Source of the DNA: Bacteroides mediterraneensis
Lineage (GTDB): Bacteria; Bacteroidota; Bacteroidia; Bacteroidales; Bacteroidaceae
Direction: 5' to 3'
NCBI RefSeq assembly: GCF_016900355.1
Contig: NZ_JACJKA010000020.1
Coordinates: 1-64,000 of the forward strand
Length of the DNA stretch: 64,000 nucleotides
A program made the position numbers and the translations under genes. How positions within the stretch are numbered: the stretch's first letter is position 1; the number at the start of each line of letters is the position of its first letter. The notes under the pieces are model-generated. The model ran no database searches. It was not told the origin of the DNA and worked only from the letters and a program-made list of their open reading frames with translations. Positions 8,359-27,603 of the stretch are shown here, one piece after another.

Positions 8359-8377
8359 TCCAAACAATTAAAGAATT

Positions 8378-11300: not shown

Positions 11301-12082
11301 GTAATGAGTATATAAAAAATGGAAGTCAGCTTCCAGATTTTGACAGTTTATATCCCGCTAATATTGATAACTTTACAGCATTTCAAATGGTTAGTGAAAT
11401 ACCTGCAGATGGTAGTCAAACAGAATTTCTATCAACAAAAATTTTCCTAAACAAGCTAAATAAACATGCCCTAAATATAAAAGAGAATCAGCTGACAAGC
11501 AACAAGATTTTGAATGATTTTAAAAACGTTTATCTTCAGGATCCTATTGTAAAAGAATTAATAGACAATTATGTAAACATTGATAACGATATCACCAAAT
11601 TATATAGGGATTTTATTACCCAAAGTTATTTTAACCGTCGTTCTCAATCTTGTAGAACAAAGAACAAACGGGAACTTTTGTATAACGTTCTAGTAGGTTT
11701 AATAAACCGCCAAAATGGAACCGAAGCCAAAGGAGCTGCCTATAATAACGTAAACAAAATAGCACTAGAACAAAACACCAATTGGGCACAATGGGATACT
11801 TGGTGTAATTCATTAAAGTATGAACCACAATCTCCTGTTCAACTCAGAAAACGAGATAAGGCTAGATTAGGGATGACAGAATGGAAATTCTTAGGAGTTC
11901 ATAAACTGAACGGTATGCTTGACCAATATATATGGGATACCAATGAAGATGCAGGCAAGATTCTATTTTCAGATCAAGCAGGTGAAACTCTTAATTTTCA
12001 CAACAAAGAAATCCATTATTACAAAAAATCAGAAACAGACCCTCTTACTGCATTAAAAAACATACTCAGAAGAATACAATAA
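8378..12082 (+). CDS. tssI: VgrG spike protein (TssI), large
   Basis: A 1234-residue spike protein. The N-terminal part is gp27-like and contains the VgrG hallmark PYLVQYNESFFDFLVRVSN near residue 270. A charged coiled coil of about 80 residues (about 165-245) is inserted before it. The gp5-like OB domain (about 578-675) carries the phrase RVRVRYPW at one edge and WIRIALPM at the other. Between them a 35-residue (TSKDS)n repeat (595-629) is inserted in a surface loop. A gp5C-type beta-helix follows (about 771-818; VDINAFTGITISAPNG). The last 400 residues are helical and AT-rich, with no domain that I recognise; they may be an adaptor or effector region. Base composition switches sharply along the gene (see findings). 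The protein punctures target membranes and carries the PAAR-like tip encoded downstream. Confidence 0.88.
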   Translation: MTSYILVINNIPTDNAKLEFKYNTNSEDSKKTFDVNDNNEKETWTCTLQNLSYSKAIYKPGELQFNLQLTGCKNVNKIYQTFKEKTVTLISKENDKTNNISKDYYIFGIRIQKRSDIFYITVQAFDPFKYLTLDNYCKAYTGKKFILDILWNTDLWPKKLPTAIKKTQFTLEKSIRNKAVLEQKKKTLEWIIANLNDQKNKENKKPEKERDEKKIKELENKIHELEAEDRPLETTKKEINATTIEGSSVFNITPQLLHYHNGIEFIQPYLVQYNESFFDFLVRVSNRCGEFLYYEDGYFNIGWDKDTKVKTPITEYVAINFAQNVTTACEEDSISSVHNDYTTNENKKDSKSAAKMYDSNLASDENLASIPPKDEYTQWTDFALFPGCYFINIFTDIANSANVAEALTNLVFSTTATTSASAVFSKNVNDEYEKKYFDPNKAYIKERQNGERIHPFSTSNSNTTTVKSSESNIPPNSYIPFSLEFYEAVRKGIEKNEQSRIQIALGTHFYPLSLGSLIELDNQTYIVVQINGCVNNETETLDIEAIPYSEGNTVFPPAAPVNPIREAKAQRAFITDNLDPLKMNRVRVRYPWQATSKDSTSKDSTPKDSTSKDSTPKDSTPKDSTPEDSTPWIRIALPMASNDCGFNFLPQIGDEAIINYENGNIERPYVEGMLYTGKSSVPYDFKQNNARVISSVNGHSIIFSDPPVSTNAINGLFPLWKTINSFVPSALKGKDLKEYNKKAMGGIEFTDEHGLYSISMSSDKRTISIDSPVGKVDINAFTGITISAPNGNVRIEGKNIDIVAGNNLSISSGNNIASHFWHMRDSKWGEGGKDFLQTLGTSFLSKVEIIDMNLIRTIFETLLRPCAGTLLIKSNRYLCFEAGKGEAQIAGRQTVKQLGIRKTSDLTFAPDQICEVTIPYQNNVVVTNRIPIHINNVIQAIEAAEQAFRTINTNLLSAKNAYIDAFKTINRIPRSNEYIKNGSQLPDFDSLYPANIDNFTAFQMVSEIPADGSQTEFLSTKIFLNKLNKHALNIKENQLTSNKILNDFKNVYLQDPIVKELIDNYVNIDNDITKLYRDFITQSYFNRRSQSCRTKNKRELLYNVLVGLINRQNGTEAKGAAYNNVNKIALEQNTNWAQWDTWCNSLKYEPQSPVQLRKRDKARLGMTEWKFLGVHKLNGMLDQYIWDTNEDAGKILFSDQAGETLNFHNKEIHYYKKSETDPLTALKNILRRIQ
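10160..10264 (+). repeat. 15-bp in-frame tandem repeat (7 units) inside vgrG
   Basis: Seven copies of ACGyCGrAAGATTCC encode T(S/P)(K/E)DS pentapeptides (residues 595-629). Units differ only by S/P at position 2 and one K/E change. The unit is 15 bp, so slipped-strand changes in copy number would keep the frame. The insertion lies between two strands of the OB fold, where VgrG proteins normally have a short loop. Confidence 0.95.
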
Positions 12083-12100
12083 TAACAGACACCATTACAC

Positions 12101-13891: not shown

Positions 13892-13903
13892 AAACAAAAA
13901 ATT

Positions 13904-14293
13904 ATGGCAAAATATGTTTGTATGGGTGCCACACTGAAATGCACGTTTGGCATGACCCCCTCCTCATTAATGGTAACAGTTCCCTTACGGCCAATGATTC
14001 AAAACAAGCCAAAAGCCACCATCATGGACTTTGCCCCAATGGTCAACATCCTGCCCTTCGGCATGTGTCAATCACTGAGCAACCCTATGGTAGCCTCTGC
14101 TACCGCTGCTGCTATGGGTACGCTAACCCCCATGCCTTGCATCCCTGTAATCGTAGCTCCCTGGGCACCGGGAGGTAAACAATTGATAACCAACATGCCA
14201 GCACTATTAGATAATTGCAAACTGATGTGCGCCTACGGCGGTAGTATTTCCATCAATATGCCTGGCCACACGTGCGACTCACAAGGAAAATGA
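13904..14293 (+). CDS. PAAR-like spike tip protein (DUF4280 family)
   Basis: A 129-residue protein of the DUF4280/PAAR-like type: CMGATLKCTFG near the N-terminus, a Pro- and Met-rich middle (TPMPCIPVIVAPW), and a C-terminal LMCAYGGSISINMPGHT segment. The Cys residues and the terminal Gly/His-rich part probably bind a metal at the spike apex. It is the last gene of the first operon; a strong bidirectional terminator lies 3 nt after its stop codon. Confidence 0.85.
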   Translation: MAKYVCMGATLKCTFGMTPSSLMVTVPLRPMIQNKPKATIMDFAPMVNILPFGMCQSLSNPMVASATAAAMGTLTPMPCIPVIVAPWAPGGKQLITNMPALLDNCKLMCAYGGSISINMPGHTCDSQGK

Positions 14294-14296
14294 AAA

Positions 14297-14347
14297 CAGA
14301 CGCTTCCCCCTTCCTGAAAATAATTCCAGGAAGGGCGGAAACGTCTG
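14297..14347. terminator. Bidirectional terminator between convergent genes
   Basis: An interrupted stem of about 18 bp: CAGACG, TTCC and CCTTCCTG on the left pair with CAGGAAGG, GGAA and CGTCTG on the right, around an A/T-rich loop. It separates the first T6SS operon (plus strand, ends 14293) from the minus-strand gene ending at 14357. Confidence 0.75.
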
Positions 14348-14356
14348 AAAACACTC

Positions 14357-15091
14357 TTATTCATCAGTTCCTATCTGGCTCAGGTCCAACTTTGAGCCTT
14401 TCTCTTCACTATGGGCAGCTTGACGCTCCTTTTCAGCCTGTTCAGCTTCAGTTCTTTCTTTTAAATATTTCTGGTATGCCTCTTCTATCTGCTTCTCCTT
14501 ACTTTCACGATACGACTTACAGAGATCTTTTATCTGATCATACTGTTTCTGGAGTTCCTCTTTGGCTTCATCCATTTCCTCAGGTTTAGCCGTCATTAAT
14601 TCTTTGGCTATTTTCGTACCATACGCCACATTGGCTTTATCAATCTTTGCCATCATCTCCTCGTAAATAGCTTTTACATAATTCATACCCGCATCGTGAC
14701 GATCGCCATTCACTTCAGGCATGGTACACAAAACGTACTTATCTTCATCTAAATCCTTTTCGTCTTTCTCACCTTCAGCATCCTTTTCCTCCTCATTCAT
14801 CGACTTTTGTTCGATTTTATAATCTGGATGTGCTGTAACCACAGACTTACAGATGGCAAACAGATAATCTTGGTCCTTAGGAATCAAAGCAAACTGATTT
14901 TCCTCGGGTATAGCGACATCAGCCACGTCCTCCAAATTCAAGCGATTACCCCCTACTTCCACTTCGACCGACAGGAGAGCTGCCGGTTCAGCTTCCACAC
15001 TGAAATGCATGAACTGATAATTCATATATACAGCGTAAGCACTCATTTTCTGTTGAGCCTCTCTTAATAAACTAAACACTGTTTGTCTCAT
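14357..15091 (-). CDS. Ribosome-recycling-factor-like protein in the T6SS island
   Basis: A 244-residue cytoplasmic protein. By eye it follows the full layout of ribosome recycling factor: an N-terminal helix (EAQQKMSAYAVYM), a LLSVEVEVGGNRLNLEDVAD segment that matches the RRF domain II entry, a strand with ALIPKDQDYLFAICKSVV (RRF has I-P-D---I-KAI), then two long helices ending in KEKQIEEAYQKYL. An acidic linker of about 30 residues is inserted after domain II. The arginine cluster that RRF uses to grip 23S rRNA (VRNxRRD) reads IDKANVAYGTK, so normal recycling activity is unlikely. It shares one transcript with the PEGA protein upstream (18-nt gap). Role unknown: effector, adaptor or regulator are all possible. 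Confidence 0.5.
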   Translation of the reverse strand: MRQTVFSLLREAQQKMSAYAVYMNYQFMHFSVEAEPAALLSVEVEVGGNRLNLEDVADVAIPEENQFALIPKDQDYLFAICKSVVTAHPDYKIEQKSMNEEEKDAEGEKDEKDLDEDKYVLCTMPEVNGDRHDAGMNYVKAIYEEMMAKIDKANVAYGTKIAKELMTAKPEEMDEAKEELQKQYDQIKDLCKSYRESKEKQIEEAYQKYLKERTEAEQAEKERQAAHSEEKGSKLDLSQIGTDE

Positions 15092-15109
15092 TATTTTTCT
15101 TTTACGTTA

Positions 15110-16429
15110 TTATTTTAGTTTCAGCTGCACATTCACAATGTCGTTCCCCTTCAAACGAATTACCTTTTCAGCCTTCTTATGCCCCTTGACCAAACGAAGA
15201 CGATAGGTATTGTCAACCGGCAAATTATGCAATACACAAGGGGCAACTCCTACCATAACTCCATTCAAAAAAACAAGGGCATCCACCTCATCACACGATA
15301 TGTTCAACAATCCGTAATCAGCCAATGGAGAAATCAGATTCAGTTCTACAGTCTTACTTGCTTCTACCCAGAAAAAATCAGTACGCGAATCTAATCCTTC
15401 TTTCTTTGAACTGACAGCATAAAATCCTGGAGACAACTTTCCCCTCCACTCTCCTCGTCCCACCCTCTCACGATTGAGCCAAATCTCAGTATCACTATCA
15501 AAAGCTTTTATGTACACGTCTGACAGTTTTTCAGAAACAGACACACTATCAACCCTTGTATCAGGTGAAGTCTCCCCCGCCAAAATGGTTCCCGAATTTA
15601 AATCCCATTGCTTCAGTGGATACAACTCGACACCATTCAGATTCACAACCTTCCGCTCAGCATTAGCCAACTCTACCCACCGTTCATAATAAAGCGAGTC
15701 ACTCCTATTGACAGTCAGGCGATAACGACCAGGCATCAAACGAGCAGTTTCAGCACGCTGCATGCCAATTAGAGAACCATCCAAGTAAATTTTGGCATCA
15801 GACCAGTCTGTTTCTACACTCAGATAAGCATAAAAGGGTTGCAATATATATTGTTTTTCAAAGCGTACAGAATCAATCAACTCAATTGTATCATTCAAGG
15901 TCTGATAAAAAGGTGACTCAATACGACAAGTATGTTTACCCAACGGCAAATAAAGTGAAAGATGACCCTCCAAAACGGGATAAATAAGAGAATCAATATA
16001 GACAATGGCATGTGCCGGGTCTGTGGAGAATAATGCCCATTGCTTCTCCTGACGAAACTCTTTATCCAGACTTTCAGTATGCAAATAAGCATGATAACGT
16101 CGCTTTTTTTTCAGCACACCATCAGGAACTTTCCACACTAAATCCCCATACTTAGGGTGCTTGATAAGAAGAGATTCTGTGCGATGTGGCAAAGATAAAG
16201 TAACCACTCCATCTCCCTCCGTAGCAGACACAGCAACGTTACATGCAAAAAACTGAAAACCTTTTTCATTCGTAAAAAAATCGAGTAAAGCATGTCTTTT
16301 ATCAGTTGCAAAAACCGCCTTTCGTAAAAACGGCTTCTTATATCGTCCGAAATCCTCAACGCACATCCGCTGAGCTATAGCGGAAAAAGCAGTCAAACTC
16401 CATAAAATTATGATCCAACAATATTTCAT
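15110..16429 (-). CDS. Secreted PEGA-repeat protein
   Basis: A 439-residue protein with an N-terminal signal peptide (MKYCWIIILWSLTAFSAIAQ). I chose this Met and not one 10 codons upstream, because the -7 box at 16457-16464 would put the transcript start near 16450. The body has at least three PEGA-like domains, with the patterns AKIYLDGSLIGMQ...MPGRYRLTV, TEIWLNRERVG...LSPGFYAV and ALVFLNGVMVGVAP...NTYRLRLV; a fourth weaker copy lies near residue 150 (AIVYIDSLIYP...LPLGKH). PEGA domains are small surface-binding beta-sandwiches common in cell-surface proteins. It is exported, probably periplasmic, and may dock to the secretion machine's envelope part. That is inference from context. Confidence 0.75.
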   Translation of the reverse strand: MKYCWIIILWSLTAFSAIAQRMCVEDFGRYKKPFLRKAVFATDKRHALLDFFTNEKGFQFFACNVAVSATEGDGVVTLSLPHRTESLLIKHPKYGDLVWKVPDGVLKKKRRYHAYLHTESLDKEFRQEKQWALFSTDPAHAIVYIDSLIYPVLEGHLSLYLPLGKHTCRIESPFYQTLNDTIELIDSVRFEKQYILQPFYAYLSVETDWSDAKIYLDGSLIGMQRAETARLMPGRYRLTVNRSDSLYYERWVELANAERKVVNLNGVELYPLKQWDLNSGTILAGETSPDTRVDSVSVSEKLSDVYIKAFDSDTEIWLNRERVGRGEWRGKLSPGFYAVSSKKEGLDSRTDFFWVEASKTVELNLISPLADYGLLNISCDEVDALVFLNGVMVGVAPCVLHNLPVDNTYRLRLVKGHKKAEKVIRLKGNDIVNVQLKLK

Positions 16430-16456
16430 GAGTGCTGTTTCTGAAATCATTCCATG

Positions 16457-16464
16457 CAAACATA
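16457..16464 (-). promoter_or_regulatory. -7 box for the PEGA/RRF-like operon
   Basis: On the minus strand TATGTTTG fits TAnnTTTG, 28 nt upstream of the chosen start codon. A -33 box is not evident. Confidence 0.55.
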
Positions 16465-16630
16465 CAGAAAAATACTGAAATAATTGCTACCGCTTCCTCA
16501 TTTTCTTTACCAAACAAAGCTACAACTTATGATAGATTGAACATTTCTGAAAATCCTTCATAATAAAAGTCACCATAAAAGGAAGAAAGAGGCCTTTTTG
16601 TTACCTTTCATTCAAATATTAGCCTAATCC

Positions 16631-16663
16631 TTTGGGAATTATCCCGAAGATTTATTACATTTG
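16631..16663 (+). promoter_or_regulatory. Promoter of the E1-baseplate operon
   Basis: TTTG (16631-16634), 21 nt, then TACATTTG (16656-16663): a full match to the Bacteroides consensus. Transcription should begin near 16670, so translation of the E1 gene must start at 16689 and not at the in-frame Met at 16632. Confidence 0.75.
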
Positions 16664-16688
16664 GAAGGCTAAACGAAAGCATCGTGCT

Positions 16689-17921
16689 ATGAAAGAAACC
16701 GACTTCATACCAACCCTTTCCCCAGTTTGGGGGGCAGATATCTTTCCGCTACTTTCTTGGTTCAAACTAGACCAAATAAAACACGCCAATGTAATGGTTG
16801 TAGGTTGTGGAGCCTTAGGTAACGAGGTTCTGAAGAATTTAGCTTTGTTTGGGATTGAACATCTAGTCATCGTGGATTTCGATACTATCGAACCATCTAA
16901 TCTGACTCGATCTATACTCTTCAGAAAAGGAGATGCTGAAACTCACCAATTCAAAGCTTTCGTAGCGGCCAAACGACTCCGTGAAATTAACCCTTCCATT
17001 CAAGTTCTACCTTTAACCGGCAACATTTGCCACGATGTGGGATTAGGGCTCCTACGCCGAATGGATGTCGTGATAGGATGCGTAGATAACCGATGGGCAC
17101 GCTATTGCCTAAACCGCCTGTGCATGCGCGTCGGCATCCCTTGGGTGGACGGTGGAATAGACGGCCTTGAAGGAACTGCAAGGGTATTCATTCCCGGCAA
17201 GAACTGTTATGCCTGCAACTTGGGCCCCGAAGCTCTGAAAGATTTATCATACCGCCTTTCATGTGGTTCAACCATACGTCGAAATGAACAAGCCGGACGA
17301 ATACCGACCACTCCTATCATCGCTTCAATTATCGGAGCAGTAGAAGCACAAGAGGCAATCAAACTACTACATCCAGATGAACTGGAACACGAAGAGTTGA
17401 CCTCATTATGCGGAAAAATGTTCTACTACGAAGGACAACACCTAACCTCCCGCATTGTGGAATTTAAGGGTTATGACGATGAATGTCCCGTACACGAACA
17501 ATGGAAGCCAGTAGAAAAAGTAAACCTTACAACTACTTTACCGATTGAAGAAATGCTGACAGGCCTATCTAAACATCTCGGATGTAAAAACATAGAAATC
17601 GTTCTCAGGGACCATAGTTTCGTGGATTACCTGACCGAACGAAAAAATGACCGTAAAATTCACGTCATGTTACCTGATTATGCCATAACGGGCTATATAG
17701 AAAAAGAGCCCTCCTTATGTCATCTCCCCTTTCATGCATTATATCAGCATGAAATAAAAAGTATCGGCACAGATTTCCCGTACAAGAAATTAAATTTATC
17801 ACAAGTCGGTATTCCTCCATGGAGCATATTACATGTACATACAGAGAAAGGTACCCGCTATGTAGAACTGGCCGACGAACAGAATTATATAACATACTTA
17901 TTTCAAAACGAACAGATATGA
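16689..17921 (+). CDS. E1-like ubiquitin-activating enzyme (ThiF/UBA family)
   Basis: A 410-residue E1 homologue. It should adenylate the C-terminal glycine of the Ubl encoded at 22163 and carry it as a thioester. The Rossmann/adenylation core shows GCGALGNE (39-46), IVDFDTIEPSNLTRS (61-75, with Asp63/Asp65 and Arg74 as expected) and GCVDNR (130-135). A structural zinc site is likely: CYAC (173-176) with CPVH (266-269), where His269 replaces the usual fourth Cys. The crossover loop (QAGRIPTTP, 201-209) has no Cys at the UBA5-like position; Cys192 (SCGS) is the best candidate for the catalytic Cys. About 130 C-terminal residues form an extra domain that may recruit the E2 (UFD-like); that is inference. 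The start is set by the promoter. The stop codon overlaps the TssG-like start by 4 bp. A role in thiamin or molybdopterin synthesis is unlikely: no such genes are near and an E2 is present. Confidence 0.88.
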   Translation: MKETDFIPTLSPVWGADIFPLLSWFKLDQIKHANVMVVGCGALGNEVLKNLALFGIEHLVIVDFDTIEPSNLTRSILFRKGDAETHQFKAFVAAKRLREINPSIQVLPLTGNICHDVGLGLLRRMDVVIGCVDNRWARYCLNRLCMRVGIPWVDGGIDGLEGTARVFIPGKNCYACNLGPEALKDLSYRLSCGSTIRRNEQAGRIPTTPIIASIIGAVEAQEAIKLLHPDELEHEELTSLCGKMFYYEGQHLTSRIVEFKGYDDECPVHEQWKPVEKVNLTTTLPIEEMLTGLSKHLGCKNIEIVLRDHSFVDYLTERKNDRKIHVMLPDYAITGYIEKEPSLCHLPFHALYQHEIKSIGTDFPYKKLNLSQVGIPPWSILHVHTEKGTRYVELADEQNYITYLFQNEQI

Positions 17922-18724
17922 TAAACGAGACAGATCTCTTCGATATAAACGCAGAATTCTTGCTAAATTACCTGTATCCGGACCAAACAGACCAATGGCA
18001 GGCAGAATGTGCAGGAACATTTTATCGGAACTACAGTCCAGACATTTTGTCAATCGAAAAAGACAAAACAACAGTGCGCTTGGCTCGCGACGGCTTCCTG
18101 CGACTTCTCCCTCAAGGCATCATCGCCCCTGACAATGCCCTGAAAGGAAAAGACTTCGAACAGAAATACGAGCAACTGAAGAAAAAAGAAGAACTTCTGA
18201 AAGATCTTTTCAAGCCTATAGACACCCAGAACTTCAGATTCCGTCTTCACATCGAAAAAGAGATAGCACAGTTGTCGGGAAACAAACTTACCCTCCTACT
18301 GAAGCAATATTTCAACTTCAATTTAGAAGAAGAAAAAAATCCATACATCCGAAAAACAGCCCCGCTACTGCTTCTCATCAGCCAGCTGCGTGCTGACTTT
18401 TCCTTTCTGCGCACCCTACTAAAACATCTATTTGAGTGCTCTGTAGAAATGACAACCGGCCAATATACATGGGATGAAGGTTACGAGTATTCACAACCGG
18501 CCGTTTTCTATTACTTAATAATTCCTAACCTGACTAATGAAGCATACAACGAGCTGAAACAAGCCATTAATCCATTCATTGACTTTATCCGCGAATGGTT
18601 TATACCCTTCGATACACATTGCAGCATATCCATCAAACACCACGACTGTCCATTTGTTTTGGGGAAAGACCTGACATTGGACTACAACACTAAAATAAAT
18701 ACATTTATCAACCCAACATATTGA
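17918..18724 (+). CDS. tssG: TssG-like T6SS baseplate protein
   Basis: A 268-residue cytoplasmic protein resembling the TssG of Bacteroidetes in size and position. Recognisable points are a central LLLLISQLRADFSFLRTLLKHLFE helical stretch and a C-terminal FIREWFIPFDTHCSISIK segment like the beta-sandwich end of TssG. TssG forms the baseplate wedge with TssE and TssF. Its start codon lies in the stop of the E1 gene (ATGA overlap), so the two are translationally coupled. Identity is inferred; a profile search would settle it. Confidence 0.6.
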   Translation: MINETDLFDINAEFLLNYLYPDQTDQWQAECAGTFYRNYSPDILSIEKDKTTVRLARDGFLRLLPQGIIAPDNALKGKDFEQKYEQLKKKEELLKDLFKPIDTQNFRFRLHIEKEIAQLSGNKLTLLLKQYFNFNLEEEKNPYIRKTAPLLLLISQLRADFSFLRTLLKHLFECSVEMTTGQYTWDEGYEYSQPAVFYYLIIPNLTNEAYNELKQAINPFIDFIREWFIPFDTHCSISIKHHDCPFVLGKDLTLDYNTKINTFINPTY

Positions 18725-18742
18725 CAATAACAGGTATCCATT

Positions 18743-19885
18743 ATGAACATCAATTCAAGAATAGACTGGAAATCAGGTATGGCAATCTCCGCCCGTACCT
18801 TCCTGAAATTGGACGAAAACTTACACAATAGGCTGCAGGTTGCTAACCGAGCCACTAATGGAAATGAATTTGGGCTCATTCCCTTCACTGAATTCAACAA
18901 CCGGGGAGGTTTCGTTCGTAATAAATTAGAAATGGAGCATCTAACCTGTATGGCTCTTCTTCCTTCCGGGAAAATTTTACATATAGACGAAAAAGTCACG
19001 GTAACCATACCATTGGTGTATGGCGACGAATACTACCTGGCTTGTGGCTTCAGCGAAAAGAAACTTGAATTCGATGTCGAAGAAGTACCTTTTGTACGAC
19101 CGGAGTACACTTACGGCATATACCCCTTGAGCGAACTGGAAGGTACAGACCTTTTCCCTGTTATGAAGTTTAAGGTCAACGACGGTATCTTTGCCATTGA
19201 CGAGTCTTATATTCCTCCCAGCCTATGCCTTTCAACCAACAGTCATTTCCAAACATACTTGGAAGAACTCACAGAAAAGGCTCGCGTGCTGGCTGAGCAT
19301 CCAAATTTAGAGAGCGGCGAAGGAAAACGCGCCCTACAACGTTATGCCTATTTGTTAAAGAACTATGACATCCAAGGCAGAACCTACCCCTTCATCCAAC
19401 TAACCCGAGAAATAGCACAGTCCATTGACTACTACATAGTTAGTCCACATACTGAGACACCAGTAGTCATTCCATCCCATTCTGAATACGACATTGCAAC
19501 CTGGTTGGAATGGCTGAACAGTTACTTACATAATGCGTCAAATATTTTGGACAAAGTCGTGCTGGAAGATCACTCCATCGATTTTGACGAACTAAAAGCA
19601 CAAATCAAAGAAGAATTATACGAACAACTACACCCCAAACTATACGAACAGCTCTACGCCGAATTAAAGACAAAACTTTATACAGAGATTACAGAAAACT
19701 TAACCAACCGACTGACCGATTACATCAGTCACCAATTCAAAGCCGAATTACATGATTTACTTTCGGAAGAATTGTCGGAGACATTGTACGAGAACCTATA
19801 TAAGAAGTTATATGAAAGTCTGTACAAGGCTTTATATGTTCCAACAGAAGAAGAAGACAAGGATGAATTTATGCCTTTAATTTAA
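18743..19885 (+). CDS. tssK: TssK-like baseplate protein with C-terminal LYxx repeats
   Basis: A 380-residue protein with the N-terminal TssK shell signature (IDWKSGMAISARTFLKLDENL, where other TssK proteins have a W-GM--P-HF pattern) and a beta-rich shoulder domain to about residue 150. It lacks the globular receptor-binding domain of canonical TssK. Residues about 289-366 instead hold a run of LYxx tetrads (LYENLYKKLYESLYKALY at its end), predicted to be a helical surface that faces a membrane partner. TssK normally joins the baseplate to the membrane complex, so this swap fits a different envelope partner. Confidence 0.7.
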   Translation: MNINSRIDWKSGMAISARTFLKLDENLHNRLQVANRATNGNEFGLIPFTEFNNRGGFVRNKLEMEHLTCMALLPSGKILHIDEKVTVTIPLVYGDEYYLACGFSEKKLEFDVEEVPFVRPEYTYGIYPLSELEGTDLFPVMKFKVNDGIFAIDESYIPPSLCLSTNSHFQTYLEELTEKARVLAEHPNLESGEGKRALQRYAYLLKNYDIQGRTYPFIQLTREIAQSIDYYIVSPHTETPVVIPSHSEYDIATWLEWLNSYLHNASNILDKVVLEDHSIDFDELKAQIKEELYEQLHPKLYEQLYAELKTKLYTEITENLTNRLTDYISHQFKAELHDLLSEELSETLYENLYKKLYESLYKALYVPTEEEDKDEFMPLI

Positions 19886-19892
19886 GTAGATT

Positions 19893-20339
19893 ATGAATGT
19901 TTTACTACCACTGCAAATAACAAATGGCCGACTGGCCACCGCCACACAGCCACAAACTGCTATCAATGCGTTCATCGAACTATTGTTGAGCACACCATGT
20001 GGAAGCAATGTGGCAGATCCTCAATTTGGCTTTATATTTAATAATCTGAAATTTGAGATTTTCAATGAAAAGGAAGGAGTCATTTATGATTCAACCCCAC
20101 AAGAGAGTCTATATCCTAATTTATATGACAAAAAAATATCAGGAAATTCCAAGAACATCAATACATTTGCGATAGACTTAAAAAAAGCCATCGAACAATA
20201 CGAAAAAAGGTTATCACATGTTTCTGTTTCCATGACATACCTTAAAAGTCAAAGAATAATTCAAGTCATCGTTGAAGGCGTACTCATAGAAACAGGTGAA
20301 GTTTACAAATATACAACCAGCATCAAACTCTGGAACTGA
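19893..20339 (+). CDS. tssE: TssE/gp25-like baseplate protein
   Basis: A 148-residue protein of the gpW/gp25 family: ADPQFGFIFNNLKFEIF in the first half, KKAIEQYEKRLSHVSVSM, then the closing strands IQVIVEGVLIETGEVYKYTT. TssE belongs to the baseplate wedge and starts sheath polymerisation. It begins 7 nt after the TssK-like gene. Confidence 0.85.
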   Translation: MNVLLPLQITNGRLATATQPQTAINAFIELLLSTPCGSNVADPQFGFIFNNLKFEIFNEKEGVIYDSTPQESLYPNLYDKKISGNSKNINTFAIDLKKAIEQYEKRLSHVSVSMTYLKSQRIIQVIVEGVLIETGEVYKYTTSIKLWN

Positions 20340-20380
20340 ACTCTCAAAGAACTTCCTAACAAGAACTAAAACGAAAAAAA

Positions 20381-22078
20381 ATGAAGCAAACGATATTCAA
20401 TACACGCCAAAGAGCAGAAGAAATCATCAAAGAAGCAATTGCAATCTGGGAGCAAAGCACCAATAATGAACACCTCGAAGGAATTGAGCAAGACCCGGTT
20501 TTCTCACTATTTCTGACAGCGCTGGCCTATCAAGCCAACGAAATTGATAACGAAATTGAACAGCTCAAAACCGAAATTCTTTATGAACTGGAGCAAATGC
20601 TTATTCCCTACGAACGCACCCATGCGCTTCCCGCCACAGCAACCGTAGAAGTGACGCCAAGTGAAAGTATTTCTGTGCAAACACTGGATCATCAAACAAT
20701 CTTTTCGCTACAGGATACGCAATTCAAGTTTATACCTCTTCTCTGCACACAAGTTTTCAACTGCAAAATTACCTCAATAATCAGAGCGGACAAACGCCGC
20801 TGGAAAGTGACCCTACAATTCAAAGAAACAACCAGCAACCTATCCGGCTTCACCTTTTCAATTAACAATATTCACTTTCAAGACCTAAAAGTTTTCGCCA
20901 ACGGTCACCCATTACCACTCATCAAGCCATGGGACTATGCAGATTTACCATTGGACAAATGTTTCTCGTTAGAGAATCTGATTTACAACCAATCAAGTAT
21001 TTTCCAAGCTCGCCACATCTGGTTTGACTTATTTGCCAGACAAAACGTACGATTATTTACGGTAGATACGTACAAAACTCCTTCTGCAACATCTCAACCA
21101 GATGAAAAGTTAGAGTTAACTTTCGAATTCTTTGGCATTGATGAACAATTTTCATTCGACAAAGAAATGTTATCCATAAACTGTACCATCTTAGCTAACG
21201 CTTCTATAGCGTCTGCCACCCTCTCACCCAGTTCTCCTATCGCGCGTTTAACCGATTGGAACGATATTTCTACACGCGGGCAATTCCTGCATCTAATTCG
21301 ACCATCAGACACACAAATATTCAGAGAAGAGCCCATTGAAATCCGCAAAATGACAGGCAGCCGCTTCAACCCAGAGCGTTTAGTTAAACTTGCGAGTACA
21401 CTTATCAACCGTTTCTCTTCTGATTATTATGCTTTTCAGGGTATCGAATCCCTCCAGGAAGGCAACTTCATGAACAATTTCTACTCACTACTGAAAAAGA
21501 TGGCAGAAGGAGTGGCACAAGCCTCGAACACCTATACCTCAAGTATATATTTGATGCTCAAGAACAATAGTGGTTTCCATCCCAAAGACAAGAGTTTGCA
21601 TATTGACTACTTGATTACTAACGGTAGTGCTGTGAATAGCTTCCTGAATAACAAAAGTCAGTTCCACATCTTGGCAAACGGATATTTCACGAATACCAGA
21701 CTGATTGCCGAACCTATGCCAGGATTTGACGAGACACAGAACATAGATGCTGAAAATACGCTCACGCGTTACTACCTGACCACTAATGACCGCATTGTAA
21801 CACCTGCCGACATCAAGATATTGTGTTATAACGAACTTCTCACCCGCTTCGGCATAACAAACGAAATGATTACAAGCATTAAAGTCAGAAACAATCGACG
21901 CACAGAAGGCAACCATTACGGCTTGGAGACCCAAGTTTATATTTCTCTAAAAGATGACCCCTACATCAAACGAAACTTTCAGCAAAAAATTCCCATGACT
22001 GAATTTTTATTACAAAAGATGATTGAAGTAAGAAGCACTAACATCCTGCCTGTTCTAGTAAATATCGGGATAAACTAA
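20381..22078 (+). CDS. tssF: TssF baseplate protein
   Basis: A 565-residue TssF homologue. The N-terminal hallmark EQDPVFSLFLTALAYQANEI followed by LYELEQMLIPYERTHALPAT matches the TssF pattern (a conserved helix pair, then PxY and P-A-x-x-x). A long beta-rich middle ends in RNNRRTEGNHYGLETQVYISL. TssF and TssG form the wedge that holds VgrG. It is the last baseplate gene before the Ubl-E2 pair (84-nt gap with a weak promoter). Confidence 0.9.
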   Translation: MKQTIFNTRQRAEEIIKEAIAIWEQSTNNEHLEGIEQDPVFSLFLTALAYQANEIDNEIEQLKTEILYELEQMLIPYERTHALPATATVEVTPSESISVQTLDHQTIFSLQDTQFKFIPLLCTQVFNCKITSIIRADKRRWKVTLQFKETTSNLSGFTFSINNIHFQDLKVFANGHPLPLIKPWDYADLPLDKCFSLENLIYNQSSIFQARHIWFDLFARQNVRLFTVDTYKTPSATSQPDEKLELTFEFFGIDEQFSFDKEMLSINCTILANASIASATLSPSSPIARLTDWNDISTRGQFLHLIRPSDTQIFREEPIEIRKMTGSRFNPERLVKLASTLINRFSSDYYAFQGIESLQEGNFMNNFYSLLKKMAEGVAQASNTYTSSIYLMLKNNSGFHPKDKSLHIDYLITNGSAVNSFLNNKSQFHILANGYFTNTRLIAEPMPGFDETQNIDAENTLTRYYLTTNDRIVTPADIKILCYNELLTRFGITNEMITSIKVRNNRRTEGNHYGLETQVYISLKDDPYIKRNFQQKIPMTEFLLQKMIEVRSTNILPVLVNIGIN

Positions 22079-22131
22079 AAACCAAGTTTAGAAATCTCCA
22101 GACAGATTATGAATAAGAGTTTATAATTTAT

Positions 22132-22139
22132 TATTTTTG
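22132..22139 (+). promoter_or_regulatory. Putative internal -7 box before the Ubl gene
   Basis: TATTTTTG lies 24 nt upstream of the Ubl start codon. There is no good -33 box. It may allow the modifier to be made separately from the baseplate genes. Confidence 0.4.
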
Positions 22140-22162
22140 TAATTTAAAATAGAAATATAACA

Positions 22163-22480
22163 ATGGAAGATTTTTTCTTAGACATCGTATATAAAGACAA
22201 AAAAGTTAAATTCCGCATCATGAACCCTCAAGCACCTTTGAGTACTCTGATGAATAATCTACGCCATGCTCTTGGAAAAGACGGCCGGCTCATTTTTGAT
22301 TTTCCTTCGATAGATCCAACTGGTGCTCCTTTGGATTACTTTTTTGGAAAAGAAGATACAGCAACTCATGAAGTACGTGTGCTTAGACCTCGCATTGGAA
22401 AAACAGAACAAACTTTAAGTGACTACAATGTCAACAACGGAGATACACTTTTTCTAATACCTGACCCTTTCCCCGGCTAA
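22163..22480 (+). CDS. Ubiquitin-like modifier (YukD/EsaB-like beta-grasp)
   Basis: A 105-residue single beta-grasp domain. The closing segment TLSDYNVNNGDTLFLI (84-99) is nearly the same as the end of eukaryotic ubiquitin (TLSDYNIQKESTLHLV). The chain ends in DPFPG, with Gly105 as the very last residue. It therefore needs no maturing protease to expose a glycine for adenylation by the E1, and no JAB peptidase or DUB gene is present in the locus. The 60-80 region is longer than in ubiquitin. It is followed 21 nt later by the E2 gene. YukD/EsaB proteins in type VII secretion are the nearest family; conjugation as opposed to a structural role is inferred from the E1/E2 neighbours. Confidence 0.85.
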   Translation: MEDFFLDIVYKDKKVKFRIMNPQAPLSTLMNNLRHALGKDGRLIFDFPSIDPTGAPLDYFFGKEDTATHEVRVLRPRIGKTEQTLSDYNVNNGDTLFLIPDPFPG

Positions 22481-22501
22481 ACGAACTAACAAGAAATAAC
22501 T

Positions 22502-23110
22502 ATGCAAACACATTCCACAAATTGGCAGGATTTTTCAGCCCAACAACTAAATGGTAGAAATCGACGACTACTCCATGAATGGATTCAGTTGGACCAAACC
22601 TTTGCGAAACGGGATAAAATAGAATACCAGATAATCAAACGTAACACGCAAGGGTTACCTATCGTATATCTGATAACTTATCACATTTCCTCTATTAGCG
22701 GTGTAGAATATGTAGAGCAGCTTAACGAACCAGGTATATCCAACTCTCCTCTTTTCGCCTCTACTTTTTATATGCGCATCAGTTTACCTGAAAACTACCC
22801 TTGCGTAGACGCTCCTGCCGAATTTTATTTTCTAACATGCGATAAAGAAGGACATCCTCTTCCTCATCCATGGCATCCGAACATCCGATATTTTGGAGAT
22901 TTTGCTGGAAGAGTATGCCTGAATACTCCAGATAGCTATTCCAGCTTAGCTTGGTGTGTAGAACGTATTGGACATTATTTGAGTTACGATCGATACCATG
23001 CAATACAAGAACCTCCATATCCGGAAGACTTAAAAGTAGCAGAGTGGGTCATTAAGCAAGGAGAACCCAAAGGATGGATTTATTTCAACCAACAACCATC
23101 TTTAAAATAA
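22502..23110 (+). CDS. E2-like ubiquitin-conjugating enzyme
   Basis: A 202-residue UBC-fold protein. It has the E2 core in order: SLPENYPCVDAPAEFYF (about 94-110; compare YPFxPPxVxF), HPN (125-127), the GRVCLN active-site loop with catalytic Cys139, and the helix beginning SSLAWCVERIGHYLS. The N-to-Cys distance is 12 residues, a few more than in most eukaryotic E2s, because of an insert (RYFGDFA). It should accept the Ubl from the E1 by transthiolation. It ends 61 nt before the next gene. Confidence 0.9.
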   Translation: MQTHSTNWQDFSAQQLNGRNRRLLHEWIQLDQTFAKRDKIEYQIIKRNTQGLPIVYLITYHISSISGVEYVEQLNEPGISNSPLFASTFYMRISLPENYPCVDAPAEFYFLTCDKEGHPLPHPWHPNIRYFGDFAGRVCLNTPDSYSSLAWCVERIGHYLSYDRYHAIQEPPYPEDLKVAEWVIKQGEPKGWIYFNQQPSLK

Positions 23111-23143
23111 GGTCATAAAATAATTTTTTCCAATTTAAATTCA

Positions 23144-23151
23144 TATTTTTG
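23144..23151 (+). promoter_or_regulatory. Possible -7 box before the envelope genes
   Basis: TATTTTTG lies 21 nt before the start codon at 23172; no clear -33 box. The site may start a transcript for the three envelope genes. Confidence 0.35.
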
Positions 23152-23171
23152 TCATATTCAAATATTAAAAC

Positions 23172-24320
23172 ATGAAATTCTTAAAGACTATCATATATGG
23201 CCTCATTACCCTTTGCTTCGGTTCCAGTCTGAGAGCACAGACGGTCAAGCAAATAGAAGTAGCAGAAAACGCTCCATACGTAGATCATATCTCGCTCAAA
23301 CCAGGAGCAACAGACATGGACCTTCTGGTAAAAATAAACTTCGACGAGCCAAATAATAGACTCATTGTCAGCCTGATATCCTATCGGAAACTTTTTGCAT
23401 TCCAAGAAAACGTCCGTTACTCACATGTCGTTCGTTTCAACAAACTACGTCCCAACAAATTACCCTATGTAGCAGAATCAGACGAAAAGGCAAAATATAA
23501 AATAACCCGATCATTAAGAAAATCTATCAAACCTAAAAGAAAACATATCTTCAAATCATGGATTAAATATGAAGGCCTCCAACCACAACCCACTGAATAC
23601 AAAATAGTAAATGATTATATTGAGCAAACATTCGACATTCTCCATAAAGCTGCAGACGTATCTATCACATTAAGAGATATCTTAGTGATGAATGAACAAA
23701 TAAATCAGAAGAAAAAGAAATACGATCTTTTTTTCCAAACAGACTTAGACCGCACATATCATATTTCCATCAAAAGAGATCCTTGTTTTGGGAAAGAAGA
23801 CGCCATACAAACAACTAAAAATCAAGCCGAAAACATTAGAACTGCATTTATGGCACTCAAACAGAAGTTTGGTCCAGACTCCCAACTGAACACATCCGAG
23901 AGTGAAAAAATATTTAATGAAATGAAAGCTCTTCTTCTAAAACAATACCCCAAAAAAGAAGAGACAAACACCTGTCCAGATATTCAAACAAACATTGAAA
24001 CCTATAACAGCTATGTGGATGCCATCCAGAACATGCAATGCAAATTTCAAATTATAAAAGAAAAACAGCATGTAATGCTTGAAATCAGCGCAGAATATAT
24101 CTTGAGTATGGCAAGAAAAATTGACAACAGCACCAACAAATGGTTACTAAGTTCAGACGATATTGAAAAGTCAGATATAGAAGCTACGTGCAACCAAATC
24201 ATTGATTCTATTGATACACATGTACAACAGGCCACAGATATTAGCCATTCCCAACAAGAAGCCCTTGCTATATTCAACAAGGCCAAAATTTATTTTCGTC
24301 AAACCTGTCTAAATAAATGA
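23172..24320 (+). CDS. Secreted periplasmic protein of the T6SS envelope module
   Basis: A 382-residue protein with a signal peptide (MKFLKTIIYGLITLCFGSSL, then RAQT). The mature part begins with a beta-rich domain (to about 125), followed by mostly helical charged sequence, with cysteines at 210, 271, 289, 342 and 380 approximately. I recognise no family. It is followed by a membrane-anchored coiled-coil protein and the RING protein, so it is probably a periplasmic part of the trans-envelope complex replacing the usual TssP/TssR-like or TssJLM set. Confidence 0.6.
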   Translation: MKFLKTIIYGLITLCFGSSLRAQTVKQIEVAENAPYVDHISLKPGATDMDLLVKINFDEPNNRLIVSLISYRKLFAFQENVRYSHVVRFNKLRPNKLPYVAESDEKAKYKITRSLRKSIKPKRKHIFKSWIKYEGLQPQPTEYKIVNDYIEQTFDILHKAADVSITLRDILVMNEQINQKKKKYDLFFQTDLDRTYHISIKRDPCFGKEDAIQTTKNQAENIRTAFMALKQKFGPDSQLNTSESEKIFNEMKALLLKQYPKKEETNTCPDIQTNIETYNSYVDAIQNMQCKFQIIKEKQHVMLEISAEYILSMARKIDNSTNKWLLSSDDIEKSDIEATCNQIIDSIDTHVQQATDISHSQQEALAIFNKAKIYFRQTCLNK

Positions 24321-24326
24321 CATACA

Positions 24327-25169
24327 ATGAAAAGATTGAGACATCACATACAGTTCTTTTTCTACTTATGCTTCTGGATTATTTCACCAAGTACACAAGC
24401 CTGGTGTCAGGATGATCCAGGCATATTCGACAATGAAATGCATTTGTTAGAAATAGAAAGCCGCATGCTCAACTTTTATCAAGAACTTAAAGAAATTGCT
24501 GTTAATGTAGGACAATATACCCCAGATGAACTTATAAAAGCCGACAAAAAAGTATCTACAATTGATGCCAAATGGAACACATACTACCAATCAAAACAAA
24601 TAGAAATTGCCGAAGATGATTCTCTTTTGCAAATCGTAGCAAACTACCAACTAGCTAAACAGAGTTTATTAGACTCAATAGCCATTCAGAAACATTTTTT
24701 TGATGCACAAAAAAGTTTCTCGAATGCGGAAACATTCTTAAAAACGCAAGACAGCATTTATGCTCAACTTTATAAAACCGCATTCGAACTTTCATTGGTA
24801 CAAACCTTAACTACCGAACTAGAGAAAGTGAAAGGAAAAGAACAGTTATTATTTGCAGAAATCCAAAACCAATATGATACCGCTAAGGGGGTATCACAAG
24901 AATTTGAAAGTTTTCTTCCCCGCTTCCAACCAATAGAAGAGAAATACATTGAACTTAAAAACACTTCTGAGAAAATTCAGGCCTTGAAATACAAACCTTG
25001 GCTGGAACGCATAAAAGACTACTTATATAGTCTAGCAGCAGTAGCTATAATATTATTATTTATCAACATGCTGCAAGCTAAAATAAAAGCATTCAAACAA
25101 GCACGAGAAAACGCAAAAAAACTTCGTGAAATGATGGATAAAAACAATAATGATTATCCAACTATTTAA
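24327..25169 (+). CDS. Membrane-anchored periplasmic coiled-coil protein
   Basis: A 280-residue protein: signal peptide (FFFYLCFWIISPSTQAWC), a long periplasmic coiled coil (about 35-225) and one C-terminal membrane segment (about 236-253, YSLAAVAIILLFINM) with a short basic cytoplasmic tail. No family recognised. The shape suggests a spacer linking the inner membrane to the periplasmic protein encoded just upstream (6-nt gap). It could be analogous to TssO or TssN, but that is not supported by sequence that I can see. Confidence 0.55.
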   Translation: MKRLRHHIQFFFYLCFWIISPSTQAWCQDDPGIFDNEMHLLEIESRMLNFYQELKEIAVNVGQYTPDELIKADKKVSTIDAKWNTYYQSKQIEIAEDDSLLQIVANYQLAKQSLLDSIAIQKHFFDAQKSFSNAETFLKTQDSIYAQLYKTAFELSLVQTLTTELEKVKGKEQLLFAEIQNQYDTAKGVSQEFESFLPRFQPIEEKYIELKNTSEKIQALKYKPWLERIKDYLYSLAAVAIILLFINMLQAKIKAFKQARENAKKLREMMDKNNNDYPTI

Positions 25170-25200
25170 TAAACTTATAACTAGAAAATCTTCTACAACA

Positions 25201-27603
25201 ATGAACAGACAGTATATCATATCATTTCTACTACTTTTAATCCTCACATTGTCCGGATGTGAGCAACTCAGACCTGACCGTAATTCGTATAAAAAAGATT
25301 TAAACATCAATATCACAAAAATAGAATTTGAGCCAGACTACAAACATTTTAAATTAAATGTAGAACTAAACGATACCCTTACAGCATTGTTATTAAGTAC
25401 CAATGCTGACAGTATTCATTTCAAAACAGAAGAGTTTTTGAAGGGTAATATATACAATCCCAAAACTCAACCTCAATTAGAAAGCTATGAAAACCTTAGA
25501 TTAAAAGAAATAACCCAACTAAAACTGGATGCACTATTTTTGGTTGATCTTACATTGGACTCCACAGCAATCAGCCAACAATATCGGATTATCAAGGATT
25601 TGAAACGACTCTTTGCACTAGACCATCTTCATGTAGCTTTTATGAAAAATGGAGGGGTAACACCAACAATGATAGCGTCAGAGTACGTACTAAATAACTA
25701 TTTCAAAAGTGAGCCAAAAGGTAAATACCTATACCGTGCCATATCTTCTAAAATTGATGAATTCAAAAATGACTCTTCCGAATATGTAGGAAATGTAAAA
25801 GACAGTATCCACGCAAATACAGTAACTTCTGCCCAGAAAATTATGTTCGTCTTTTCCGACGGAAAGGTCTACGACCATAATAAACCTATTGACCCAAAAC
25901 ATTTCGAGTTACAATACCAAATTACCAAAAAAATTGACACAACCCAAACTTTCCCTATCTTCTATTTTAACCTAAAAGAACAAACGGAACGAATTGATCA
26001 AGAAAATAAAGATGCCCAAAATTTTTTAATGGCAATTTGTCAAAAAAGCGGAGGTAAATACATCAATGCATTTAATCAACAATTAAGTTTAAATGACATA
26101 CTACATCTATTCAGAAAAAATTATATAGATAATATCTTTACATATGTCAATCCCGATTATAAAATTTATAGAGGAATAGAACGTAAACTCCAGATTGCAT
26201 GTTATTCAGGCGATAGTCTGATTGCATCCGATTATATCTATTATAATGTAGGGAGCATCTATAACCCCATCATAGTCAATGGTTCTACAACACTCCAAAT
26301 CATTCTTCAAGGCTGTTTTATTGGCATAATAACAATCCTTATACTCTATCTAATCTTCCAATTGATTTTACCATGTATAAGTTATTGGCTGTTCAAAAAG
26401 AAATATGTCACTCGATATAACGGCCAAAACATGAGTTATAACGGAATGTTAATCGAGCAGTCTTGCTATTTCTGCAAAGCTCCATTTAAAGAAGGAGACG
26501 AGATTGTGGTGAAATGCAAACATGTACTCCATAAATCATGCTGGGATGAAAATGAATACCAATGTCCTGAGTATGGAAGACATTGCAAGAAAGGACGGCA
26601 TTATTACAACTCAAAGAATTTATTTGATCCACGCAACGCATCATTTTATCTCTCATGGATTATTGCTGGAGCATTCGCTGGTCTCATTGCCTGGATTAAC
26701 TTTACAGCCAATGTCCACCATAGCGAAAATTTATTACTTGTGAAGTTCATTTACCTTATTTGGGGTATAGAACCTAATTCACCATCCATCACGTCCCTAA
26801 TAGAAGAATACGAAAGCAATCTTTTATTCCTTCCTTTCTATGGCTTGAATATTGGTTTCTTTCTTACCCTCTCATTAAGCATTTTAACCAGCCATGGCCG
26901 ATGGTTATGGAAGAGAATATTACAAATCATCCTTAGATCTATGATTGGAGGACTTCTCAGTTATTTATCTTTTTTTATCGGATGTGTCATTTCCATCACA
27001 CTAAACTTAAAAGACAATTCGTTCCTCATCGATTGGATTCCTTGGATGTTAAGCGGCCTATTCATTGCAACAGCCGTAACTTATGGAACTGACATCAAGT
27101 TAAAGAGAGCGCTGATTGGTGCAACAATCTCTATCATATTCGGACTTGGTTCAATGTATTTGTGGTCATTCTCATTCAACTCTCAAATAGACACACGTGA
27201 ATATCTACTTTTGAGTTACATGATTTATTGTATTGGATTTGCTATTAGTGTTGCAGCCACTAGTCCGAAATCTGAACGGTATTTTCTCAGAGTTGAAGGG
27301 CCCATCAAAGAAACAGATATTGCACTCTACAAATGGATGAAATCTTCAAATCGGCCCAAAAGAATATTAATTGGAAAATCTGTCAATTGTGATCTACAAA
27401 TGACATGGGACATTACCAGCCCTATTGCTCCTGAGCAAGCGGAAATAAAAATGATAAATGGATACCTTTACCTGACTGCTTTAGAAGAAGGTATTCTATT
27501 TAACAAAAAACCACTAAAAACTAATAACAAAAAGAAACTCTACCATGGGACTAAATTTGTAATAGGAAAAACAATATTCACATACCTCGAAAAAGATTTA
27601 TAA
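25201..27603 (+). CDS. Membrane hub with vWA-like, RING-H2-like and FHA domains
   Basis: An 800-residue protein. I start it at the Met at 25201 because it opens a lipoprotein signal with lipobox LSGC (Cys20); the upstream in-frame Met would bury it. The periplasmic domain (21-360) has a vWA-like core (ALFLVDLTLDST, Asp116/Thr118/Asp120; FSDGKV). TM1 is 363-398. A cytosolic RING-H2-like finger follows: Cys422, 425, 439, His441, His444, Cys447, Cys455 and Cys462 (C-x2-C-x13-C-x-H-x2-H-x2-C-x7-C-x6-C). The last pair is wider than the normal C-x2-C. About six to seven further TM segments span 481-690, and an FHA-like domain (about 718-800, ILIGKSVNCDLQM, GTKFVIGKT) closes the protein. It is a candidate E3 ligase and envelope hub. 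The vWA part resembles TssR in general design. An FHA domain would read phosphothreonine signals. Confidence 0.75.
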   Translation: MNRQYIISFLLLLILTLSGCEQLRPDRNSYKKDLNINITKIEFEPDYKHFKLNVELNDTLTALLLSTNADSIHFKTEEFLKGNIYNPKTQPQLESYENLRLKEITQLKLDALFLVDLTLDSTAISQQYRIIKDLKRLFALDHLHVAFMKNGGVTPTMIASEYVLNNYFKSEPKGKYLYRAISSKIDEFKNDSSEYVGNVKDSIHANTVTSAQKIMFVFSDGKVYDHNKPIDPKHFELQYQITKKIDTTQTFPIFYFNLKEQTERIDQENKDAQNFLMAICQKSGGKYINAFNQQLSLNDILHLFRKNYIDNIFTYVNPDYKIYRGIERKLQIACYSGDSLIASDYIYYNVGSIYNPIIVNGSTTLQIILQGCFIGIITILILYLIFQLILPCISYWLFKKKYVTRYNGQNMSYNGMLIEQSCYFCKAPFKEGDEIVVKCKHVLHKSCWDENEYQCPEYGRHCKKGRHYYNSKNLFDPRNASFYLSWIIAGAFAGLIAWINFTANVHHSENLLLVKFIYLIWGIEPNSPSITSLIEEYESNLLFLPFYGLNIGFFLTLSLSILTSHGRWLWKRILQIILRSMIGGLLSYLSFFIGCVISITLNLKDNSFLIDWIPWMLSGLFIATAVTYGTDIKLKRALIGATISIIFGLGSMYLWSFSFNSQIDTREYLLLSYMIYCIGFAISVAATSPKSERYFLRVEGPIKETDIALYKWMKSSNRPKRILIGKSVNCDLQMTWDITSPIAPEQAEIKMINGYLYLTALEEGILFNKKPLKTNNKKKLYHGTKFVIGKTIFTYLEKDL

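Follow-up and report, generated by a model that had tools for sequence, protein, structure and literature searches.

Why should the gene cluster of a contractile injection machine contain, interleaved with its baseplate and envelope genes, the predicted parts of a ubiquitin-like conjugation cascade? This question is raised by a type VI secretion system (T6SS) cluster of Bacteroides mediterraneensis, which lies at 2098..27603 of the window (the whole stretch of 64,000 nt that was analysed; the genome measures 3.53 Mb, and the stretch comes from its contig C23) and is read on the plus strand, except for two minus-strand genes ahead of the E1 gene. A run of ten genes at 16689..27603 (+) encodes, in this order, an E1 activating enzyme, the baseplate proteins TssG, TssK, TssE, and TssF, a ubiquitin-like protein (Ubl), an E2 conjugating enzyme, two envelope proteins (X1 and X2), and a RING membrane protein, and looks like a single operon, given that the spacing between its genes is only -20 to +84 bp. 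The answer that we favour, and to which we would give about an even chance, is that this T6SS lacks TssN and uses the E1-E2-Ubl-RING cascade to couple the Ubl, at the inner membrane, to one of the machine's lysines, where the attached Ubl would act as a TssN-like dock.

The initial annotation had taken the absence of E1, E2, and Ubl genes from related T6SS loci as the sign of a chance neighbourhood, and these genes are not absent. A Ubl scan of the GTDB representatives yielded 107 relatives, the best 80 of which form the named loci, and all ten genes are present, in the same order and on the same strand, in 71 of these 80. Eight of the other nine loci are cut by contig ends, and the ninth, L072, has no E1 in its 20 kb; the genome of L072 has an open E1 elsewhere (L097), beside dapB- and rpsA-like genes (names taken from a reading of the open reading frames, ORFs), and this relocated E1 could act from there. 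The carriers live in the gut and rumen and span several genera, including Bacteroides, Parabacteroides, Alistipes, and Prevotella, with Mediterranea massiliensis, Caecibacteroides pullorum, and Prevotella sp. ne3005 among them, and the 80 named loci all belong to Bacteroidales taxa, except L027 (Bacteroidia) and L080 (a Candidatus genus). The ratio of non-synonymous to synonymous change (dN/dS), estimated against three close loci, ranges from 0.01 to 0.13, a rough estimate, given that dS could be obtained in 18 of 30 gene pairs and that the synonymous sites are near saturation.

Evenly drawn samples that include the genome of the window, with 294 genomes of the order, 298 of the family, and 392 of the phylum, were also searched. 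The Ubl profile is positive in 3/294 genomes of the order and 7/298 of the family, and the E2 profile in 3/392 of the phylum, the Ubl counts being lower bounds, as this profile missed five of the eight second-lineage family genomes that the E2 profile detected. In the reverse direction, the TssF of the window matches 30 of the 298 family genomes. The four with close matches (E-value, E, of 3e-151 or better) all carry the Ubl, and in eight further genomes, matched at E 3e-12 to 3e-18 over residues ~254-562, the E2 gene shares contig and strand with the TssF match in 8/8 cases, at a distance of 11-12.3 kb. No E2 was found in 11 comparison genomes, which were three TssN carriers and eight genomes with weaker TssF matches, from a total of 18 such weak matches. 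Given the order kept in 71 of 80 loci and the agreement of the TssF test, a chance neighbourhood is rejected; the linkage holds in both directions, and the E1-E2-Ubl-RING set, which had been described as embedded in the baseplate operon, can be regarded as an inherited part of the injection machine, to which its relatives add a JAMM protein.

The residues that the initial annotation had singled out as the key ones, i.e., GCGALGNE in E1, the terminal Gly of the Ubl, and Cys139 of E2 after HPN, prove to be invariant across homologues, the first of them as GxGALGNE. In E1, GxGALGNE, K89, D133, and C192 are the same in 23/23 proteins (five of them from divergent lineages), and C192 is, by its position, the candidate catalytic Cys, while C173, C176, C266, and H269, which are also invariant (23/23), likely form a zinc site. 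The best matches of this E1 in the PDB are UBA7 and UBA1 (9e-25 to 3e-21), ahead of MoeB (5e-19) and BubCD (4.9e-7). In E2, HPWHPNI and C139 are invariant in 26 aligned proteins, with WHPNI and C139 also present in two divergent E2s; C139 is kept in 81/81 sequences, and HPN in 119 of the 120 homologues listed. The Ubl ends in Gly (Gly105) in 80/80 loci and in all 120 proteins listed, these being the best 120 of the 590 found, and its mean top-residue frequency across loci is 0.84. The AlphaFold model of the Ubl can be superposed on ubiquitin chains, and the alignment extends to the pair 105/76 in some cases and to 105/75 or less far in others. High E-values against polyubiquitin arise from summing over repeats and were left unused as evidence. 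ATG8-like lipidation, which would suit a single terminal Gly in a membrane setting, was set aside because E2 keeps HPN, an argument from general E2 chemistry.

The place that such a cascade might occupy in the machine is suggested by a comparison with the canonical T6SS of the Bacteroidota. In this system, as described in passages of PMC10781749, TssN is the inner-membrane core, with an EccD-like, ubiquitin-like cytosolic domain, which docks the baseplate via TssK; the tssN gene sits between tssK and tssG, and the membrane complex is present, whole or in part, in all 443 subtype iii systems detected by the models of that study. We infer that the Ubl-type systems lie outside these 443. In the window, TssG adjoins TssK without TssN between them, and X1, X2, and the RING protein do not match the TssN, TssO, and TssR models, which do recognise the second, canonical cluster of the same genome, located on contig C17 and composed of TssN, two TssO-family genes, a PKD (TssP-like) gene, and TssR. 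None of 57 Ubl-type genomes (50 of the 80 named, plus seven) has TssN over the family cut-off. In the family sample, TssN is found in 26/298 genomes, and among the 12 Ubl-type genomes of this sample, it is the window's own that has TssN, in the separate cluster only.

When the T6SS of the window is set beside the subtype iii T6SS of B. fragilis (TssNQOPR), TssB, TssC, TssD, ClpV, and relatives of TssE, TssF, and TssK are common to both, whereas the Ubl type has a RING/vWA/FHA membrane protein, X1, X2, E1, E2, and a free Ubl in place of recognisable TssN, TssO, TssP, and TssR. By its gene content, the T6SS of the window fails one of the defining features of subtype iii, the TssN membrane complex. 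In hhalign comparisons with the genome's own canonical copies, TssE is linked at 5e-11, TssF at 1e-9, and TssK at 1.8e-4, the off-diagonal controls being 0.12 or worse; TssG, which has no family match, reaches canonical TssG only weakly (E 0.012), so that its name is mainly positional. With this qualification, the ten genes first named from the sequence are all present at their positions within the T6SS cluster. At the end of another contig, C35 (L083, L084), there are genes for TssB, TssC, an Hcp-sized protein, and an Ntox44 toxin-like protein, together with genes of mobile-element type, and these may be the tail portion of the canonical T6SS, the rest of which is on C17.

The same gene set is also found in more divergent relatives. 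In five loci of a second T6SS lineage (L089-L093), tube and spike genes are present in 5/5 and sheath genes in 4/5 (the stretch of L091 ends first), with relatives of TssE and TssF on the adjoining stretches (L105-L109). The order in these loci is Ubl, E2, one or two envelope proteins, JAMM, RING, E1, and baseplate genes (L090 has one further small gene ahead of E1), so that the same two blocks as in the window are found, in swapped order, the window having no JAMM. The Ubls of L089-L093 end in Gly and are 27-46% identical to the Ubls compared, and a direct BLAST with the window's Ubl fails to reach L091-L093. A YukD-like label suits the window's own Ubl (YukD 0.084) less well than it does two of the three divergent Ubls that were scanned. 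In L092, a second Ubl gene is found near the first (11105-11488, minus strand), in which the terminal Gly is replaced by a longer tail, as in a non-conjugatable paralogue. One E2 match (G458:C31:57508-58092) has two in-frame TAG codons, yet the stretch of L092 lists an open E2 ORF of 216 amino acids (aa).

A protein anchored by a transmembrane (TM) segment and bearing the full JAMM motif (E-HxH-S-D), of the deubiquitinase type, is present in 7/7 divergent loci, i.e., L089-L093, L099, and L101. When 103 sequences were scanned for the pattern HxHP..SxxD, exactly these seven loci were matched, with none in the window or the 80 named loci, and a JAMM profile found nothing in three of four genomes of the window's lineage and E 0.094 in the fourth, although a JAMM of another family may still be present elsewhere. 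L099 and L101, which belong to another order, represent a third version of the gene set. L099 is near an extracellular contractile injection system (eCIS): its contig also encodes sheath, gp25, spike OB, gp19, and CIS_tube proteins, and PAAR, eCIS_core, PKD, and TssR-like proteins are closer neighbours. The gp25 gene is ~28 kb from E2 at L099 and, in the sister genome of L101, 52 kb from it, a looser link than that of the T6SS loci.

The RING protein is predicted, from a model with a predicted local distance difference test (pLDDT) of 80 and from TM prediction, to consist of a signal/lipobox, a vWA domain, a TM segment, a RING-H2-like domain, six TM segments, and an FHA domain. Foldseek searches with this model matched FHA structures with a target TM-score of up to 0.76 and vWA structures with 0.58-0.61; at E 0.01, zf-RING_2 matches 32/40 homologues, Prok-RING_1 29/40, and FHA 18/40, and the vWA family PF00092 matches a divergent homologue at 1.7e-5. 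Seven zinc ligands in RING-H2 spacing are invariant in 40/40 homologues. The predicted topology would place RING and FHA on the cytosolic side, and vWA on that of the periplasm. X2 and the RING protein are fused into one gene in 6/78 loci, and it may therefore be argued that the two proteins touch. X1 has a signal-like N-terminus by reading, with no TM segment above threshold in the TM prediction, and its C205 and C268 are invariant in 79/79 loci. The RING protein was considered as a divergent TssR, as both have a vWA-like domain, and X2 as TssO, with negative hhalign results in both cases, and neither X1 against a 350-aa protein of L091 nor X2 against the JAMM protein of L091 gave a convincing hhalign match; these comparisons with the TssR, TssO, and L091 proteins used single-sequence targets and are thus of limited sensitivity.

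Given the invariant active-site residues, the ready-made Gly, the membrane RING, and the JAMM proteins of the relatives, a dedicated conjugation cascade is the simplest reading of the locus. Its product is placed at the interface between baseplate and membrane, given that TssN is missing, that TssN carries a ubiquitin-like dock, and that E1 adjoins the baseplate genes in both T6SS gene orders. In the proposed mechanism, E1 would adenylate Gly105 of the Ubl and hand the Ubl through C192 to C139 of E2, with the RING protein keeping the loaded E2 at the foot of the envelope complex. Joined next to a subunit of either the baseplate or the membrane, the Ubl would form a ubiquitin-fold dock between the two, the role of the fused domain of TssN in the canonical Bacteroidota systems. 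In the lineages that bear JAMM, the attachment would be reversible, and in the window's lineage, in which JAMM was not found, it may be permanent.

Two lysines are put forward as candidate acceptors, as leads only. TssE K81 lies inside a lineage-specific insertion of ~40 residues, which is not in the genome's canonical TssE, and is invariant in 79/79 loci. In the RING protein, K443, K720, and K728 are invariant in 79/79, and only K728 is kept in all eight of the cross-lineage RING proteins compared. In this survey of invariant lysines, TssB, TssC, and Hcp were covered in too few loci to be judged. In a wider form, contractile injection systems would own a Ubl pathway that welds a ubiquitin fold in place as the dock between baseplate and membrane, with JAMM unwelding it, in both the T6SS and the eCIS neighbourhood; this extension is tentative, and we would rather doubt it than accept it.

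A number of observations weigh against the favoured reading. In hhalign comparisons, none of X1, X2, the RING protein, and the Ubl matched TssN, TssP, either of the TssO-family proteins, or TssR, so that the replacement of TssN is argued from its absence together with the fold; the missing match is compatible with kinship, given that the same method barely links TssG to TssG (E 0.012). Sub-threshold TssN matches were obtained in two of the 57 Ubl-type genomes, and in G447 and G547, two of the 12 Ubl-type genomes of the family sample. Five of the 11 comparison genomes (G231, G321, G323, G408, and G424) have a TssF-like match without E2 or TssN, so that the two types are no strict either/or, and these may represent a further TssF-like or injection-system type. 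In the window, RING, E2, and Ubl score below the curated Pfam cut-offs, and no Pfam match to an E1 ubiquitin-fold domain was found among the 23 E1s. The eighth zinc ligand of the RING is off its usual CxxC place, displaced possibly to C479 (78/79), and both eCIS-type RING homologues (L099/L100 and L101/L102) have lost five of the eight ligands. One of the two eCIS-type Ubls has two residues after the Gly, and the TssE insertion with K81 is found in L106, but not in L105 or L107-L109. The eCIS-type RING homologues keep a DPITQD segment that may resemble a U-box.

The alternative that survives best, which we nevertheless consider unlikely, is that the acceptor of the Ubl is a tube, spike, or effector protein, so that the tag travels with its cargo, or that the Ubl itself is loaded and injected. 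This was proposed in the initial annotation, and the Hcp, VgrG-like, and DUF4280 genes beside the cassette are in keeping with it, as is the conservation of the Ubl (0.84), which would equally suit an exposed, delivered protein. However, the cassette runs with the baseplate and envelope genes, E1 preceding the baseplate genes in both T6SS orders, the predicted E3 and JAMM proteins are membrane proteins, and delivery leaves the absence of TssN without explanation. It is on the comparison with the TssN-type systems that the role at the baseplate and membrane is favoured over delivery.

Slightly less probable still is a non-covalent role, in which the Ubl would assist assembly in the manner of YukD/EsaB or the EccD domain, with E1 and E2 vestigial or acting on another substrate. 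The fold match of the Ubl to EccD ties with its match to ubiquitin, two divergent Ubls score to YukD (1.3e-5 and 0.0013), and a passage of PMC1779556 states that YukD is not covalently conjugated. On the other hand, T6SS lineages whose Ubls are ~30-46% identical to that of the window all keep the catalytic-type Cys residues of E1 and E2 as well as the terminal Gly, and the JAMM residues are kept in 7/7 loci, a retention that would be unexpected for vestigial enzymes. We find it more improbable again that the cassette marks spent or misassembled sheath or baseplate for disassembly or degradation: ClpV is encoded in the same cluster and a reversible tag would suit the JAMM proteins, but no gene for a tag-dependent adaptor or protease was seen among the operon proteins scanned, and JAMM was not found in the window's lineage. 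An antiphage module of the Bil, Bub, or CBASS (cyclic oligonucleotide-based antiphage signalling system) kind, present by chance inside the T6SS island, is very improbable, since, although the E1 domain matches the PADLOC E1-E2 models (1e-15) and the Bil system reportedly tags a phage tail protein, E2, Ubl, X1, X2, and the RING protein lack any PADLOC family match at E 0.01, the genes are interleaved with the baseplate genes, and the cassette is present in 12/12 family genomes identified by TssF.

The genes of the cluster are listed in Table 1. The four Hcp/TssD-like genes stand in tandem (6484-8358), and their similarity to the family falls along the row. The genes for the ribosome-recycling-factor (RRF)-like protein and the PEGA-repeat protein are found with the operon in numerous loci, where they frequently lie on the plus strand.

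Table 1. Genes of the T6SS cluster in the window, with the matches on which their names are based (values are E-values unless given otherwise).
Feature	Position	Strand	Basis
ClpV/TssH ATPase	2098..4548	+	AAA_2 8e-63; TssH model 3e-144, under its cut-off and under the ClpB model
TssB sheath subunit	4592..5056	+	VipA 0.014, under cut-off; 33% to the TssB-like neighbour of the genome's second TssC
TssC sheath subunit	5077..6450	+	38% identity to the second TssC in the same genome
Three Hcp/TssD genes	6484..7824 (starts 6484, 6916, 7417)	+	TssD 2.4e-30, 3e-24, 1e-13
Fourth, weak Hcp/TssD-like gene	7852-8358	+	TssD 0.0065
VgrG-like spike protein, 1234 aa	8378..12082	+	ORF; parts matched in related loci; named from sequence reading
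Uncharacterised 596-aa protein next to spike genes	12101..13891	+	No convincing Pfam match; present in 49/80 loci
DUF4280 protein, spike-tip-like position	13904..14293	+	DUF4280 2e-32; present in 61/80 loci
Two minus-strand genes	14357-16459	-	RRF-like coil, Pfam RRF 1.7e-9; PEGA-repeat protein 2e-19
E1 activating enzyme	16689..17921	+	Pfam ThiF 3.8e-51, over cut-off
TssG-like baseplate protein	17915..18724	+	Position; weak match to canonical TssG
TssK-like baseplate protein	18743..19885	+	TIGR03353 1.8e-10, under the model's cut-off
TssE (gp25-like)	19893..20339	+	gp25 2.6e-8, over cut-off
TssF baseplate protein	20381..22078	+	hhalign to the genome's canonical TssF, 1e-9
Ubiquitin-like protein (Ubl), 105 aa, C-terminus DPFPG	22163..22480	+	Rad60-SLD 0.0011, under cut-off; ubiquitin fold
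E2 conjugating enzyme, Cys139 after HPN	22502..23110	+	UQ_con 0.0028, under cut-off
X1, predicted secreted envelope protein	23172..24320	+	C205 and C268 invariant
X2, envelope protein	24327..25169	+	C-terminal TM segment 229-247
RING membrane protein	25150..27603	+	Prok-RING_1 1.3e-4, zf-RING_2 5e-4, both under cut-offs

Both parent kinds, the Ubl conjugation cascade and the T6SS, are known, and their combination appears to be a new variant. To our knowledge, the bacterial E1-E2-Ubl systems known so far serve phage defence or cofactor synthesis. With the Bub operons (Citrobacter BubCD), for which we know of no T6SS link, the window shares an E1-type adenylation domain, its E1 matching BubCD at 4.9e-7 versus 9e-25 for UBA7. 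We also know of no E1, E2, or RING with YukD/EsaB and EccD of type VII secretion, whereas in the window all three are present and linked. Burroughs, Iyer and Aravind (2011) are said to have described prokaryotic RING genes near E1, E2, and YukD-like Ubl genes, and may list some of the genes of the window; the RING model Prok-RING_1 matches the window's RING protein. The ISG15-like BilABCD system has E1, E2, and Ubl in common with the window, and a JAMM protein in common with the divergent relatives, whereas the E2 of the window has HPN, its Ubl is a single 105-aa domain with a ready-made Gly, its RING is a membrane protein, and the set is linked to an injection machine; according to a passage of PMC11354881, the E2 motif of Bil is CEHH, and BilA carries two Ubl domains. 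In the main text of PMC1779556 (2006), by Burroughs, Iyer and Aravind, "vgr" occurs zero times and "secretion" once, and in the main text of PMC4714493, which deals with architectures GA1-3, ubiquitin, ThiF, and FHA never occur. Among the literature matches listed, no paper describes E1, E2, or Ubl in a T6SS or eCIS.

The E1-E2-Ubl set described here is hard-wired into a secretion machine found in common gut genera, and a Ubl type is thus added beside the TssN type to the T6SSs of the Bacteroidota. The search for its natural substrate is opened with a short list of candidates, and the system may provide a link between ubiquitin folds that serve as scaffolds and ubiquitin folds that serve as tags. 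If the proposed reading is true, ubiquitin-style tagging would be a structural step, and possibly a firing-control step, of a bacterial nanomachine.

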